Positions 6,372-11,560 of a DNA stretch of 11,560 nucleotides are shown piece after piece; position 1 is the stretch's first letter; every line of letters starts with the position of its first letter. Under the pieces are notes generated by a model that worked only from the letters and a program-made list of their open reading frames with translations, had not been told where the DNA came from and made no database searches. The position numbers and the translations under genes are program-made. This DNA is from an uncultured bacterium (lineage in GTDB: Bacteria > Patescibacteriota > Patescibacteriia > Patescibacteriales > Patescibacteriaceae): NCBI GenBank assembly GCA_937868555.1, contig CALMNI010000008.1:1-11560 (forward strand), given 5' to 3'.

Positions 6372-9047
6372 ATGAAATTTACTCGAAAAAAATTACTTTT
6401 TTCTTTACTCGCTTTTGCCTTAGTATTCATAAGCGCCTACGCCGTAAGCGCGCAGACGCTTAATACGGGTTTGAGTTTTGGAAATGCAATCGGCTTGTCA
6501 AATCAGGACATACGCCTTACGATTGCAAAAATTATCCGGATCATTTTAGGATTCCTCGGAATTATTTCTGTGGGACTAGTTATGTATGCTGGTTTTATTT
6601 GGATGACGGCCGGTGGCAATGAAGAAAAAATCGGACAAGCTAAAACTATTTTAAAAAATGCGGCCATCGGCTTAGCTGTCATACTCGCATCCTTTGGCAT
6701 CGTTTCCTTTATTATTGGAAAATTGCTTGAAGCAACATCAGGTAATGGAAATACTTCCGGAAGCGGTCCTAATGGAAGTAGTGGTGTAAGCGGATTAGGA
6801 AATGGAATTGTTAAAAGCGTATATCCTGAACCTTTTCAAAAAGACGTGCCGCGCAATACGGCTATCATTGTTACTTTCCGTGAGCCGATGAAAGCATCTT
6901 CCCTTTGCACGACGGTAACATCGCAAGGCTTGTGTGCTCCTGATGCTAAGCTTGTAGCGAATAGCGTAAAAATTTATAAAACTTCTGACGGCAGCGGCGC
7001 AAATAATATTACCAATGCCTCTGCCGCTTCGAGTGATAACATGACATTCGTTTTTAAGCCAGCAGGTCCGAATTATCTTGGCATTCCGACTGGCCCGACA
7101 GACTATACTGTTGCTTTAAGCGGAGGAGTGCAGAAAGCTGATGGCAGCAGTGCTTTTAACTTGTCAGATTTCCGCTGGCCGTTCCAGGTTAACAATACTT
7201 TAGACTTAACATCGCCAAAAATTCTCTCAGTAAGAGAGAAGATTCCTGGTTTACTGGAAGGTGGTATTTTCCCCTTAATGGATAATGGTAAAGATACTGT
7301 ATCCGGTACCTCTCCGGCAGTTCCGTCTAAGGGAACTATTACAGTAAATGGTAAACCAGCAATTTTCCAAAGCGCCGATGCCACTATTGAGCGATTACTA
7401 CCGCCGGGACTAAAAGAAACCGGAGCAAGCGTTACTGGAACGAATCGTTGTGCTGGCGGACCTATTGATATTACTATCGTTAACGGAACTCCTTTAAAGG
7501 CAAGCGTTGCTTATAGCCAACCGGGACTCGAAGGTGGCAACTTAGCAATAGTGGGCAATAGGATAGAGCTTGCACCTTGTGGATTAAGTGTTGCATTTAA
7601 TGCTGGCTATAATGCTGGCAATAGCTGGAGAATTACGGTCGTTTCAGAACGGCAGGCTGATACTTTGAAGGTAGGTAGCAAAATCTATACCTTTGTTTCC
7701 AATGCTGTAAATGATAGCCAAATTAGTGTGGGAGCAACAAACAATGCCACGGCAGCAAATATTGCAGCTGCTATGGATGTACATCCAGAAATGACAGCTA
7801 CGGTTCGTCAAAATATTGTTACTGTCCAAGCAAAAGTCGCCGGCAGCGGAGGCAATAATCTCGAACTTACAACAAGCAACCAAGTTGCATTAGCACTTTC
7901 TCGCATGACAGGAGGAAGTGATCAAAGTATACAATATACTGTAGTCGATCGCCCTGATCAGCCGAAGAACGCAGTTATTCAATTGAATTTCAATGAACCA
8001 ATCAATCCTTTAACTATTGCTGGAGACAGTGTGGCGATAGCTGAAAAGCTACGAGTGGTAAATTCTGAGCCCACTGCTAAGGCAGCTGGGGGTACTTGCG
8101 ATAGCGATAGCGACTGTCGTTCTTATAAATGCTCAGGTAGTTTATGCCAAGGAGATCAACTTGCAGGTAAATTTGTTGTTTCTAATCAGTATAAAACCGC
8201 AGAGTTTATATCTGATATTAAATGCGGAGTAAATGGCTGCGGAGAAAATATTTATTGCTTGCCAGCGAATAGTCATCTACAAATCGAAGCCGCCGCCGCC
8301 GCCCTTATGCCATGTTCTACTAATGCGGATTGCACTGTTGCGCCGTTTAGTACATGCGCTCAGGGTGTCTGCACAGATACGGCAGGCAAGAAAAATTATC
8401 CGGTCGCCGCTTCAATGAACGGTATTATCGACGCCGCTAATAATTCGCTTGATGGAAACCGAAATAATAATCCCCAAGGTCAAGCCGATACTTGGGATGA
8501 AAATAAAACTTCAACTGACAACGCCGGTCGTGGAGACAACTATCGCTGGTCATTTTGGGTGAGCGATCGTTTAGATCTTACTCCGCCGGAAATTATTTCA
8601 ACAAGCGTTAATAATAAGCAGTCGAAAGTTAGTCTTTCCGCGGCGATTGATATAGTTTTTTCTAAGCTCATGCTCTCTTCGAGCCTTACTACTGGAAATG
8701 TTGTTGTTAACAACGGACTGGGAGACGTCACTCATAAACTTATTAATTTGTGGAGTTTGGCCAGTAATCCTGTTGGTTATTGGGTGCAGAAAAAAGATTT
8801 GGATGTTGACCCTGTTGATGGACGGCCAGATCGCACTGACGCGGTTTTGGGTCATGGAACTTTTGGCGATTCAACCTCTTATGCCGCGCAAGTTGGTTCG
8901 GGAGTCAAAGACATTTATCAAAATTGCTACAAGCCTTCTGCCGGTCCTAGTTGCCGTCCAAATGCGCTTATGCCTTCGTGCTGCCGTGATGCTAACGGTG
9001 ATTTACAGCCGACAGCAACTTTAAATAGTGACGGTAATTGCCAATAA
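6372..9047 (+). CDS. Exported surface protein 1: pilin-like N-terminus fused to Ig-like domains
   Basis: This protein has 891 residues. The ATG at 6372 was chosen over 6330 because it begins a classical signal peptide (MKFTRKK, hydrophobic core 8-24, cleavage after VSA at 27). A two-helix module follows (TM 57-79 and 97-118, with a charged GNEEK/QAK loop), resembling the VirB2/TrbC-like T4SS pilin family, then a Gly/Ser linker (123-145). The rest should lie outside: a Big_5-like Ig domain (146-273), an unassigned beta-rich stretch (278-418), a phage-structural-type domain (419-517), a second Ig-like domain (about 522 on) interrupted by Cys clusters (576-592, 648-667), a third opening DLTPPEI (735-741), and a Cys-rich end. 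A (GCC)5 tract encodes Ala640-644. No SD is visible. The next gene starts 4 nt after the stop. A role as a surface appendage or adhesin is inferred. Confidence 0.8.
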   Translation: MKFTRKKLLFSLLAFALVFISAYAVSAQTLNTGLSFGNAIGLSNQDIRLTIAKIIRIILGFLGIISVGLVMYAGFIWMTAGGNEEKIGQAKTILKNAAIGLAVILASFGIVSFIIGKLLEATSGNGNTSGSGPNGSSGVSGLGNGIVKSVYPEPFQKDVPRNTAIIVTFREPMKASSLCTTVTSQGLCAPDAKLVANSVKIYKTSDGSGANNITNASAASSDNMTFVFKPAGPNYLGIPTGPTDYTVALSGGVQKADGSSAFNLSDFRWPFQVNNTLDLTSPKILSVREKIPGLLEGGIFPLMDNGKDTVSGTSPAVPSKGTITVNGKPAIFQSADATIERLLPPGLKETGASVTGTNRCAGGPIDITIVNGTPLKASVAYSQPGLEGGNLAIVGNRIELAPCGLSVAFNAGYNAGNSWRITVVSERQADTLKVGSKIYTFVSNAVNDSQISVGATNNATAANIAAAMDVHPEMTATVRQNIVTVQAKVAGSGGNNLELTTSNQVALALSRMTGGSDQSIQYTVVDRPDQPKNAVIQLNFNEPINPLTIAGDSVAIAEKLRVVNSEPTAKAAGGTCDSDSDCRSYKCSGSLCQGDQLAGKFVVSNQYKTAEFISDIKCGVNGCGENIYCLPANSHLQIEAAAAALMPCSTNADCTVAPFSTCAQGVCTDTAGKKNYPVAASMNGIIDAANNSLDGNRNNNPQGQADTWDENKTSTDNAGRGDNYRWSFWVSDRLDLTPPEIISTSVNNKQSKVSLSAAIDIVFSKLMLSSSLTTGNVVVNNGLGDVTHKLINLWSLASNPVGYWVQKKDLDVDPVDGRPDRTDAVLGHGTFGDSTSYAAQVGSGVKDIYQNCYKPSAGPSCRPNALMPSCCRDANGDLQPTATLNSDGNCQ

Positions 9048-9051
9048 TAGT

Positions 9052-11560
9052 ATGCGCTTTTCAAAAGTAACATTGGTTAAGGTACTTCTTTGCTTCTTCG
9101 TTATCGGAGGAGCGTTTTGGGGTGTTTCGCAAATTGTTCACGCGCAAGATCTAAATACCGGTTTAAATTTCGCATCAAATACCGGCCTGGCAAATGTTGA
9201 TCCGCGCGTCACTGTTGCGCGCGTTATTAGAATCGGCTTAGGCTTTTTGGGAGTATTAGCCGTTGGCTTAATAATGTATGCCGGATTTTTATGGATGAGC
9301 GCGAAGGGCAATGAAGAGAAGGTTGAGCAAGCAAAAAAAATTCTTACAAGTGCAGCTATAGGCTTGGCAATTATATTAGCGGCTTTTGGAATTGCTAGTT
9401 TTATTCTTTCAAAATTATTAGAAGCTACTGGCGGTGGGGGCGGGGGAGATGGGAGCGTATGCAGCCCTGCTTGCGCACAGGGCCAATATTGCTGCGCCGG
9501 CGCTTGTCAGGCGGGAGCTTGCGGCAATTTAATTGGCGGTAATAAGCCTTTCATGGTACGCGGATCAGTCCCTGGTGATGGTACTGTTGACGTTCCTCGT
9601 AATGCCGTTATTCGTTTTCAATTTACTAAAGATGTGCAGCCGCAAAGCGTAAATAACCTTACCTTTGCTGTGCGCGATGGAGACCAAGAAATTAACGGCC
9701 AGCGCACTGTTATTGGCGATTATATCGAATTTAGACCCACTGAGGGTTGCGGCACTAAGGCTGAAGGACAGAAGTGTTTTCCTGCTAACACAACTATTAC
9801 GGTTGAAGCTCGCAATAATAATTACATTCCTTCGGGGCAAGATCCTGTCTTTGGTAATGGTGCTCAAAATGGTTTGACCGTTGGAAACAGTGGTTTTGGT
9901 AAGGGGATTATGAGTGTTCAAGGTGATACTCTTATTTGTGGATCAAAAAATGAAAAATGCGCGATTAGTTTTACTATCGGCGATACGATTGACACGGAAG
10001 TTCCGCGGGTTAATTTAGCTAACCACCAAATTTGTGCTCAAAGCGACAGTACTTTAGAGGCGAGCGCTATTGATAATACAGGTGTTTCAAAAATCGACTT
10101 TTATGTGGCCGGTAATCTTGTGGGAAGCAGAATTAATAATACCTTTCCTTTTATTGGTAGTCCTTATAATGCTAGTTTTATTTGGAATGCAGCCGGCATT
10201 CAAGCAGGACAGAATATTGCTTTAAAGGCAACGGCGTATGATTTAGATAGCAACAATGCCTCTGCTGAGAGGACGATTAAAGTTTCTGCTAGCCACTGCT
10301 GCAATGGCTTGAAGGATGGCGATGAAACTGGTACGGATTGCGGCGGCAGTTGTATGGCTTGCGCTGGACAAGCTTGTGCGGCTGATAAAAATTCTCCGGC
10401 CCAATGTAGTGATGCCATGTGTTCATCTGGTTTTTGCTCGACCTCAGGCTCTACTCCGGCAACATGTGCGGCAGCGGGCTACAATAACATTTCTACCTGT
10501 TGTTTGTGCCAAGCCCGTCCGCAGATTGATTGGGTAAGCCCAGTGGGCGGATTTTGTTCAAACAACCAAGATAAATTTTGCCGCGCCGCAACAGCTGCTC
10601 AAGATTGCGGTACGGGTTCTTGTAATCTCGGCACTCCTAATGGCGCTGCGGGAAATTTTATAACGATTGGCGGCAGTGGTTTTGGCTCTGCTCGAGGTAA
10701 AGTATATTTCACGGGAGCTCGAGGTAAAGTTGAAGCTGATTTGGCTGATGACGCGCAGCTTGGAAATATTGCTTGTGCGGGTGAAGTATGGACCGATAAT
10801 CAGATTATTGCAGTTGTCCCCGCAGGTGCCCAAGCGGGCCCAATAACGGTAGAAAAAAAAGATGGAATTAGCGATGCGACGGACGATGGATACGGTTCTC
10901 TTATTGATAATTTTAGAAAAAATTCTATTATTCGTCCTGGTATTTGTACATTGAGCCCCGACTCAGCGCAGTCCAACAAAACAGTTGTTTATAACGGTAT
11001 TAATTTATTGTCTTCGGAAGCAAATTTTGGAAACTTCTCTAGCTTTATTCCTGCTTTAGAATCATCATTCACGACTGCTAAGTCCGGCAATGCAAAAGTG
11101 CCGAACTTAACAAGCGGGCCAACGACTTCTTTCGTTAATAAGGCAGGTGTGCCAAGTAATTTTATTTCTTTCGTTAAAGAAAATGATCCCTATAGCGGAC
11201 CTATTATAAGCTCCATAGAACCAAGCTCTGGTCCGGTAGGGCAGTATGTTACTGTTCGCGGAAGCGGATTTGGTGATATTCAGGGAACGAGCAAACTTTT
11301 CTTTGGAGATACGTCTGGTAAAGAAGCTGATTATAATTTCCCGGAAATTTGTTCGCAAAGTGTTTGGACCGATAAGCAAATCATTATCAAGGTTCCGGCT
11401 AGCGCGACGCTTGGCAATACAGTATTAACAATCATCCGCGATGGCTTTACTCCGGTTTCTAGTGGGGAACGCGTTTTTCAAGTTACGACAGGTAATCCAA
11501 ATCCAGGATTGTGCCGTATCGATCCGTCCCTAGGCCAGCCGAATAATCCAGTAACACTAT
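9052..11560 (+). CDS. Exported surface protein 2: pilin-like N-terminus fused to Ig-like, Cys-rich and IPT/TIG domains (partial)
   Basis: Starting 4 nt after the previous gene, this frame stays open for 836 codons to the right edge, so the 3' end is missing. The signal peptide ends VHA (cleavage after 31). The pilin-like module (TM about 61-82 and 101-121) matches that of its neighbour without gaps. A six-Gly linker (127-132) and a Cys knot (137-157) follow, then a Big_5-like domain (about 168-315) and a Big_7-like Ig domain with IDFYVAGNLVGS (about 318-413). Next is a Cys-rich module from 416 with DGDETGTDCGGSCMAC, then a series of IPT/TIG-type units (about 490-608, 631-715, 717-812 and one opening at about 817). 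Two share VWTDNQII/VWTDKQII (579-586, 771-778). No SD is visible. It is a paralogue of protein 1 with a different extracellular part; a surface-appendage or adhesive role is inferred. Confidence 0.8.
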   Translation, partial: MRFSKVTLVKVLLCFFVIGGAFWGVSQIVHAQDLNTGLNFASNTGLANVDPRVTVARVIRIGLGFLGVLAVGLIMYAGFLWMSAKGNEEKVEQAKKILTSAAIGLAIILAAFGIASFILSKLLEATGGGGGGDGSVCSPACAQGQYCCAGACQAGACGNLIGGNKPFMVRGSVPGDGTVDVPRNAVIRFQFTKDVQPQSVNNLTFAVRDGDQEINGQRTVIGDYIEFRPTEGCGTKAEGQKCFPANTTITVEARNNNYIPSGQDPVFGNGAQNGLTVGNSGFGKGIMSVQGDTLICGSKNEKCAISFTIGDTIDTEVPRVNLANHQICAQSDSTLEASAIDNTGVSKIDFYVAGNLVGSRINNTFPFIGSPYNASFIWNAAGIQAGQNIALKATAYDLDSNNASAERTIKVSASHCCNGLKDGDETGTDCGGSCMACAGQACAADKNSPAQCSDAMCSSGFCSTSGSTPATCAAAGYNNISTCCLCQARPQIDWVSPVGGFCSNNQDKFCRAATAAQDCGTGSCNLGTPNGAAGNFITIGGSGFGSARGKVYFTGARGKVEADLADDAQLGNIACAGEVWTDNQIIAVVPAGAQAGPITVEKKDGISDATDDGYGSLIDNFRKNSIIRPGICTLSPDSAQSNKTVVYNGINLLSSEANFGNFSSFIPALESSFTTAKSGNAKVPNLTSGPTTSFVNKAGVPSNFISFVKENDPYSGPIISSIEPSSGPVGQYVTVRGSGFGDIQGTSKLFFGDTSGKEADYNFPEICSQSVWTDKQIIIKVPASATLGNTVLTIIRDGFTPVSSGERVFQVTTGNPNPGLCRIDPSLGQPNNPVTL

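Follow-up and report, generated by a model that had tools for sequence, protein, structure and literature searches.

A tandem pair of giant proteins with type IV secretion pilin modules and long Ig-type tails, conserved in a class of Patescibacteria

The window analysed here is the entire contig C8 (CALMNI010000008.1; 11,560 bases) of an uncultured Patescibacteriaceae bacterium whose 1.02 Mb genome, in 202 contigs, is listed as 94% complete. It encodes two large proteins in tandem on the + strand, here called P1 and P2, each starting with a signal peptide and a module of the type IV secretion system (T4SS) pilin family and continuing into a long tail. P1 (6372-9047) is complete at 891 amino acids, as judged from the open reading frame, Pfam matches, full-length homologues and an AlphaFold2 model. 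Its signal peptide region (residues 1-27, 6372-6452) contains a hydrophobic segment at 8-26, modelled as a helix at 4-24, with the cleavage site placed by eye. The pilin module that follows (residues 28-122, 6453-6737) was delimited by Pfam, hydropathy, alignment and the model, and consists of an N-terminal segment with the motif GL..xDxR, a helix (47-79), a loop (80-83) and a second helix (84-122). The tail (residues 123-891, 6738-9044) is by Pfam, hydropathy and the model a Gly-rich linker and a chain of beta domains with 20 Cys and no further hydrophobic segment. P2, recognised by its reading frame and Pfam matches, starts at the ATG at 9052, from which its residues are counted, and its frame is still open at 11560, where window and contig end. 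Its module (residues 32-126) lies at 9145-9429, and the part of the tail within the window (9430-11560) has Pfam matches to Big_5, Big_7 and TIG and a Cys-rich stretch. Contig C93 of this genome opens with the remainder of P2, a 1,136-residue open frame (L211:3-3413): with a P2-tail profile, C8 stops at position 595 and C93 picks up at 604 with the remaining protein, and the two genes next to it are those found downstream of P2 in relatives. P2 is about 1,830-2,270 residues long in most relatives and 1,467 in one (G004).

The two modules align without gaps and are identical at 64 of 95 positions, exactly as counted by eye in the initial annotation of this DNA; the best of 2,000 shuffles of the P2 segment gave 18. 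That annotation had also called the module pilin-like and had made this depend on similarity to a pilin family, which is present. PF18895 (T4SS_pilin; curated cut-off 26.6 bits) scores 30.3 bits with P1 and 31.5 with P2 as long proteins, and 33.8 and 38.4 bits with their N-terminal pieces alone; two P2 relatives, scanned at full length, score 29.5 and 22.9, the one above and the other below the cut-off. The NCBIfam model NF045849, the pilin-like conjugal transfer protein Mbov_0395, gives 35.8 (P1) and 33.8 bits (P2) with the N-terminal pieces, under its cut-off of 40. Positions 9-79 of this 80-position model align with the P1 module, and the model is without a tail, unlike P1 and P2. Among Pfam matches to P1 and P2 at E-values up to 1 there is no pilin family of the type IV pilus (T4P). 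Hydrophobic segments, called at a Kyte-Doolittle threshold of 1.6, are in both proteins confined to the signal peptide and the two helices of the module. AlphaFold2 places helices of P1 at 47-79 and 84-122, followed by mostly beta structure (70 sequences; mean predicted local distance difference test score, pLDDT, 87.7), and with the N-terminal 150 residues it returns helices at 47-79 and 84-123, the hairpin having a pLDDT near 91. Hydropathy and structure prediction thus give the layout of the VirB2 class, that is, a signal peptide and two hydrophobic helices joined by a short loop. What P1 does not share is the small size of that class, whose members end soon after helix 2, since 769 residues lie beyond it. 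The arrangement suggests a hairpin in the membrane with the loop inside and both ends outside the cell.

Sequence of Ig, TIG and Cys-rich type had been claimed to extend for more than 700 residues behind the module, and it does: the tail has 769 residues in P1 and 710 in the window part of P2. Big_5 is matched in both tails and TIG and Big_7 in that of P2; in P1, PF13205 and PF18895 are the families over cut-off. Pfam finds no catalytic or toxin domain and no S-layer homology domain in them. In the 19 genomes (this one included) from which both proteins could be extracted, a hydrophobic 19-mer beyond residue 165 is absent from 18 of 19 P1 and 15 of 19 P2 frames, some of the latter being incomplete, and the last 60 residues contain no LPxTG, several P2 proteins stopping at a contig end or a run of N. 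The hallmarks of a sortase-anchored adhesin are therefore missing: there is no C-terminal LPxTG, and no hydrophobic segment follows the module of P1.

The pair is conserved across the class sample and is not a local oddity. In a set of 21 genomes of the order, the P1 module finds matches in all, and P1 and P2 were both extracted from 19, the exceptions being G008, where P1 is cut, and G011. Other frames lie between the two in G014, G016 and G017, and P2 is incomplete in some genomes. The protein database holds 117 matches to P1, counting its own entry, and about 80 span almost the whole protein; PF18895 and Big_5 occur together in 106 of the 117, and a few are named 'Ig-like domain-containing protein' or 'pilin'. 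Eighty P1-like loci were kept from named genomes, of which 27 bear the title Ca. Falkowbacteria, 6 Buchananbacteria and 1 Uhrbacteria; the remainder are mostly titled just Patescibacteria, Parcubacteria or bacterium. The NCBI taxonomy assigns Falkowbacteria to the Parcubacteria group of Patescibacteria; the class in GTDB is ABY1. Among 379 genomes from across the phylum, a P1-tail profile matches 39, namely 31 of 33 of the same class (one, G213, weakly and within a P2-type protein) and 8 of 346 outside it, none of these better than E 3.8e-7. The P2-tail profile matches 33 of 33 genomes of the class; among the matches listed, G241 is found by the fn3 region alone, and nearly all matches outside the class are to the final fn3 region. 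By coordinates, P1- and P2-type frames are adjacent in at least 26 of 30 further genomes (29 of the same class and one of the same order); in two genomes, G213 and G316, P2 is present and no P1 was seen. A P1 homologue on a contig labelled Chlamydiae (L181) is probably mis-binned. An apparent 14,266-residue giant pilin in G105 (L203, L204) was rejected, the frame being 93.6% X across 40,000 N, with sequence at its ends only.

Within this conserved pair the module and the tails have evolved differently. In a tree of 60 modules, the labels P1 and P2 each need at least 10 changes on well-supported branches only, and the two modules of one genome are strongly supported sisters in six cases (G001, G004, G005, G009, G013 and G015); many other forks are unresolved. 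Identity between P1 and P2 modules averages 64.3% within a genome vs 49.3% between genomes, a difference reached by 0 of 5,000 permutations, and between genomes it is 51.7% for P1-P1 and 50.0% for P2-P2. When one genome per family is drawn the excess stays (0 of 2,000 permutations in every draw). Set against the P2 modules of other families, that of the same genome comes out as the best match in 15 of 19 genomes, or 20 of 24 with five more. In 12 further genomes of the class, five of them already seen for this comparison and several sharing a family, the values are 60.7% within and 47.6% between. P1 and P2 of G013 hardly differ in the signal peptide and the first half of the module, and 19 of 31 fourfold-degenerate sites agree, the expected fraction being 0.28; such agreement is also clearly raised in G002, G005, G007 and G009, and less or not in others. 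Recent conversion is not seen in the genome of the window (7 of 24 fourfold sites equal, expected 0.28). The tails, in turn, are orthologous by role, the top match of a P1 or P2 tail being a tail of the same role in 38 of 38 cases (19 genomes), and BLASTP between the tails of a single genome gives no match at E 1e-3 in 17 of 19 genomes and matches of 37 and 34 bits in the other two. Taken together, the likeness of modules within genomes, fourfold sites of the G013 type and the orthology of the tails indicate that the pilin module is recurrently homogenised within genomes and the tails are not; in some lineages the homogenisation probably occurred by gene conversion. The idea of one module reused with interchangeable tips thus stands for the reuse in two proteins and fails for the tips: the 38 same-role matches exclude swapping of tails between P1 and P2 in the genomes tested, and it is the module that was exchanged.

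A weaker link joins the pair to a short pilin, M, the first of a short-pilin array, which has about 132 residues and was recognised by the motif GL..xDPR, chosen after the sequences had been seen. Genomes with no such pilin were dropped from the comparisons, leaving 16 of 19 and, in the further set, 9 of 12. M aligns over its whole length with the P1 and P2 modules (41-47% identity to P1 in ten pilins; 45% for the M of this genome), and most M proteins, this one included, end just past helix 2, where the Gly-rich linker of P1 and P2 starts; P1 and P2 are for this reason read as pilin, linker and tail. P1-M identity is 48.9% within genomes vs 43.5% between, and P2-M identity 50.8% vs 45.7%, an excess of about 5 points over comparisons between families that 0 of 5,000 permutations reach. 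With other array pilins as a control, some of which may be M-like ones missed by the motif, copy means are 33.3 vs 32.4 (P1) and 33.8 vs 32.8 (P2), and the excess of about 1 point is reached by 79, 65 and 19 of 5,000 permutations for P1, P2 and M. The further genomes (n = 9) give 45.5 vs 42.8 for P1-M (p 0.004) and 49.6 vs 45.6 for P2-M (p 0.0006). At residue 64 of P1, in helix 1, P1 matches M in 14 of 16 genomes (0 of 4,000 permutations; the best of 98 columns), and P2 does so in 12 of 16 (1 of 4,000). The P-M similarity fits co-assembly with M or repeated exchange with it.

Genes for a T4SS are present in the same genome. Contig C88 carries VirB4 (P-loop domain, PF19044) and PrgI (VirB3-like, PF12666), so that the secretion or pilus ATPase that a pilin reading had been said to call for was found, as were the further module copies sought with it. 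PF18895 matches 13 times, ten of them over cut-off: in the pair, five times in the short-pilin array that closes contig C45, in a short frame on C194, in one of 256 residues on C47 and in four frames of 302-460 residues on C23 and C61. The frames on C23 and C61 have the module at about residues 117-205, behind a Cys-rich start, and the proteins (297-452 residues in the reading used; L026 and L027) form another modular pilin type. The C61 contig, with two of them, also encodes a 2,727-residue protein (L027:7586-15769), secreted by eye, with a CBM_4_9 carbohydrate-binding domain. There are also four matches to PF00437 (T2SSE-type ATPases, a kind that type IV pili use), and the T4SS pilus therefore need not be the sole adhesion organelle. 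In the order set, family or protein searches yielded a VirB4 match in 19 of 21 genomes, with a partial frame in G018 and two frames in G014; none was found in G011 and G016. In the single-contig genome G001 large distances separate the T4SS core, the short-pilin array and the giant pair, the array adjoining genes read by eye as nusA, dnaN and dnaA; in G020 the pair is about 21 kb from virB4.

Long proteins with the module also occur in other classes. PF18895 was found in 57 of 59 sampled genomes, mostly, among the rows listed, in frames of 100-250 residues; outside the class, frames longer than 500 residues account for at least 8 rows from seven genomes. Six of the seven (all except G063), chosen for length and not at random, were inspected. 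The module is N-terminal on proteins of 1,239 residues in G042, of 1,012, 844 and 768 residues in tandem in G040, of 1,643 residues in G047 and of 606 and 702 residues in G060; it is internal in G026 and C-terminal in G046. Modular T4SS pilins therefore recur in the phylum, and the P1/P2 pair is the version that one class has kept. The 1,239-residue protein (L215:5840-9559) lies amid a short-pilin array, and beside the 1,643-residue fusion, also in another class, two proteins (L217:5990-6919 and L217:6920-7894) have three tandem pilin modules each. Among 14 control genomes, that of the archaeon Haloferax volcanii alone gave a PF18895 match over cut-off.

The genes around the pair are recurrent. 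Upstream in the window, on the + strand, are signal peptidase I (Peptidase_S26, PF10502; 2458-3015) and histidyl-tRNA synthetase (PF13393; 3023-4357); a RelA/SpoT-type (p)ppGpp enzyme (PF04607, PF13328; 4834-6297, - strand) is a divergent neighbour in the order relatives examined. Gene names are from Pfam for the window and G003, and elsewhere from similarity or by eye. In the genomes listed, the order recurs, whole or in part, as signal peptidase-hisS-(other genes)-P1-P2-TSP3 protein-450-residue protein-ybeY-dgkA-ftsA-ftsZ, with an extra large gene after P2 in some. In relatives the pair (window 6372-11560; L061:1786-5136) thus lies upstream of ybeY-dgkA-ftsA-ftsZ, usually with two small or mid-sized proteins between. 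One is a conserved small membrane protein with bacterial TSP3 (calcium-type) repeats (L070:9123-9533) and the other a conserved protein of about 450 residues with one TSP3 match under the cut-off (L070:9551-10885); both are possible partners of the giants.

It seems somewhat likely, judging from sequence and predicted structure, that P1 and P2 are modular pilins of the T4SS that act as giant minor subunits and present adhesive tails. The N-terminal part would be a complete VirB2-class pilin, and the C-terminus of its hairpin would run into a long Cys-rich Ig/TIG/fn3 stack outside the cell. The giants would enter the membrane like the short array pilins, be taken up by the same VirB4-driven machinery and, as rare subunits, become part of the T4SS pilus at its base, in its shaft or at its tip, and the filament or its mouth would then show the adhesive tails to a partner cell. 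Such co-assembly with short pilins, adhesion and partner contact we infer in part from what is known of related systems. Before assembly, VirB2 pilins reside in the membrane, from which VirB4/VirB11 extract them (PMC12624023). The loop of the F-pilus subunit lines the lumen and its two termini point outward (PMC6635492), so that a C-terminal tail could be carried with the channel unblocked. The T4SSs of Patescibacteria are of the monoderm type, with unusual pilins and relaxases mostly missing (PMC12102498); pilin genes are essential in one cultured Saccharibacterium (PMC10633639); and other Patescibacteria, which live with methanogens, count T4SS pilins and Ig-fold proteins among their highly expressed genes (PMC10936435). 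A broader proposal, held more tentatively, is that Patescibacteria build heteropolymeric T4SS pili with giant, built-in covalent adhesins at tip or shaft, a class-wide partner-contact device in which gene conversion keeps the plugs compatible and the two dedicated tails stay distinct, and that the same solution arose with different tails in other parts of the phylum.

Several observations weigh against these proposals. With 769 to some 2,000 residues, the tails exceed in bulk any T4SS pilus subunit known to us and could clash in a shaft. The pair sits before ftsA-ftsZ, outside the VirB4 locus and the pilin array; G016, listed as 92% complete, keeps the pair with no VirB4 match; and in the genome of the window VirB6 has no Pfam identification, a polytopic candidate being matchless. 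Among the matches listed, fold searches with the hairpin give generic helical hairpins and none of the solved VirB2 or TraA pilins, and the PDB offers no credible sequence relative. The link to M is also uneven. Control pilins compared by their best copies show an excess of 2.8 (P1) and 2.5 (P2) points, about half that with M and reached by 0 of 5,000 permutations, so some background, as from composition or relatedness, exists and may make up part of the 5-point P-M excess. Draws of one genome per family give p 0.0015-0.012 for P2-M and p 0.0075-0.061, not always significant, for P1-M, and a genome's own M beats every other-family M in just 8 of 16 genomes, for P1 and P2 each. At residue 64 the further set gives 7 of 9 for P1-M (expected 5.1, p 0.085) and 8 of 9 for P2-M (expected 6.0, p 0.081); this position, not significant there, was dropped as proof of co-assembly and is kept as a hint only.

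The chief rival, unlikely but a serious one, is that the pilin hairpin was recruited as a plain two-pass anchor, and that the surface adhesins or envelope proteins so anchored work as separate molecules that neither polymerise nor depend on a T4SS. It agrees with the signal peptide and module being the sole hydrophobic parts, so that the module has to anchor the tail, with a pair that lies among housekeeping and division genes and not T4SS genes and persists in one genome lacking a VirB4 match, and with tail domains that loosely resemble S-layer and cell-adhesion ectodomain folds. A mere anchor, however, would not need the helix sequences and GL..DPR motif common to the short pilins, nor does it sit well with the repeated homogenisation of the module, stronger between P1 and P2 than with an unlinked short pilin, or with the existence of a fusion within a pilin array. 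The recurrent place before ybeY-dgkA-ftsA-ftsZ, and the retention of the proteins in at least 30 of 33 class genomes sampled, could instead mean that P1 and P2 form a surface layer or septal structure linked to division, their pilin origin being historical. We regard this as improbable: gene order is its one footing, Pfam finds no S-layer homology domain, and homogenisation of the module with short pilins is left unexplained. Least probable of all is that the module is an extraction tag by which the T4SS pulls P1 and P2 from the membrane and delivers them to, or deposits them on, another cell. The force that extracts pilins is said to come from the VirB4-VirB11 ATPases (PMC12624023), and non-DNA cargo is plausible because most Patescibacteria T4SS clusters are without relaxases (PMC12102498), but the tail domains found by Pfam are of adhesion type, with none that is catalytic or toxic.

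P1 and P2 resemble the VirB2-like array pilins of Patescibacteria in PF18895, signal peptide and two-helix hairpin, and in the presence of VirB4 and PrgI in the same genomes. The array pilins are treated as small array proteins in the accessible text of PMC12102498 and PMC10633639, whereas P1 and P2 have tails hundreds to thousands of residues long and form a fixed pair apart, before ftsA-ftsZ. The inclusion rule for VirB2-like pilins in PMC12102498 was E <0.001 over more than half of the profile; P1 would pass it and may therefore have been counted there as a plain VirB2-like pilin. In the available text of that paper the term 'Ig-like' is absent and 'fusion' appears once, for VirB3-VirB4. 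PilB of Streptococcus sanguinis likewise has an adhesive module C-terminal to a pilin module, presented on a filament and proposed to be at its tip, but it belongs to a different pilin family, with a class III signal peptide and T4P assembly, and P1 and P2 have no T4P domain; the 860-residue modular T4P pilin from Falkowbacteria mentioned in the same paper also differs from P1 and P2 in family (PMC8179133). A further likeness is to VirB5 tip proteins and PrgB-type adhesins, proposed to make contact with the partner cell at the T4SS. PrgB is a separate surface adhesin. VirB5 is likewise a separate, helical tip protein (PMC12624023), whereas the tail of P1 and P2 is covalently part of the pilin, and the Patescibacteria set of PMC12102498 includes no PrgB in the text available. 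A literature search, for which supplements and most subscription papers were outside the scope and other papers partly accessible, returned no recognised description of T4SS pilins fused to long tails. As far as this search reaches, the domain family and the pilin arrays are known already, and the long tails, the fixed pair, its place at ftsA-ftsZ and the homogenisation of the module are apparently new.

How the ultrasmall Patescibacteria recognise and hold their partners is unexplained for most lineages, because few are in culture. If P1 and P2 are what we propose, the conserved pair of giant pilins would be a named, antibody-accessible contact candidate for a whole class, and counts of 'VirB2-like pilins' in the phylum could mix small shaft subunits with very large modular ones. 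The T4SS pilus itself would then change from a plain tube to a display filament.

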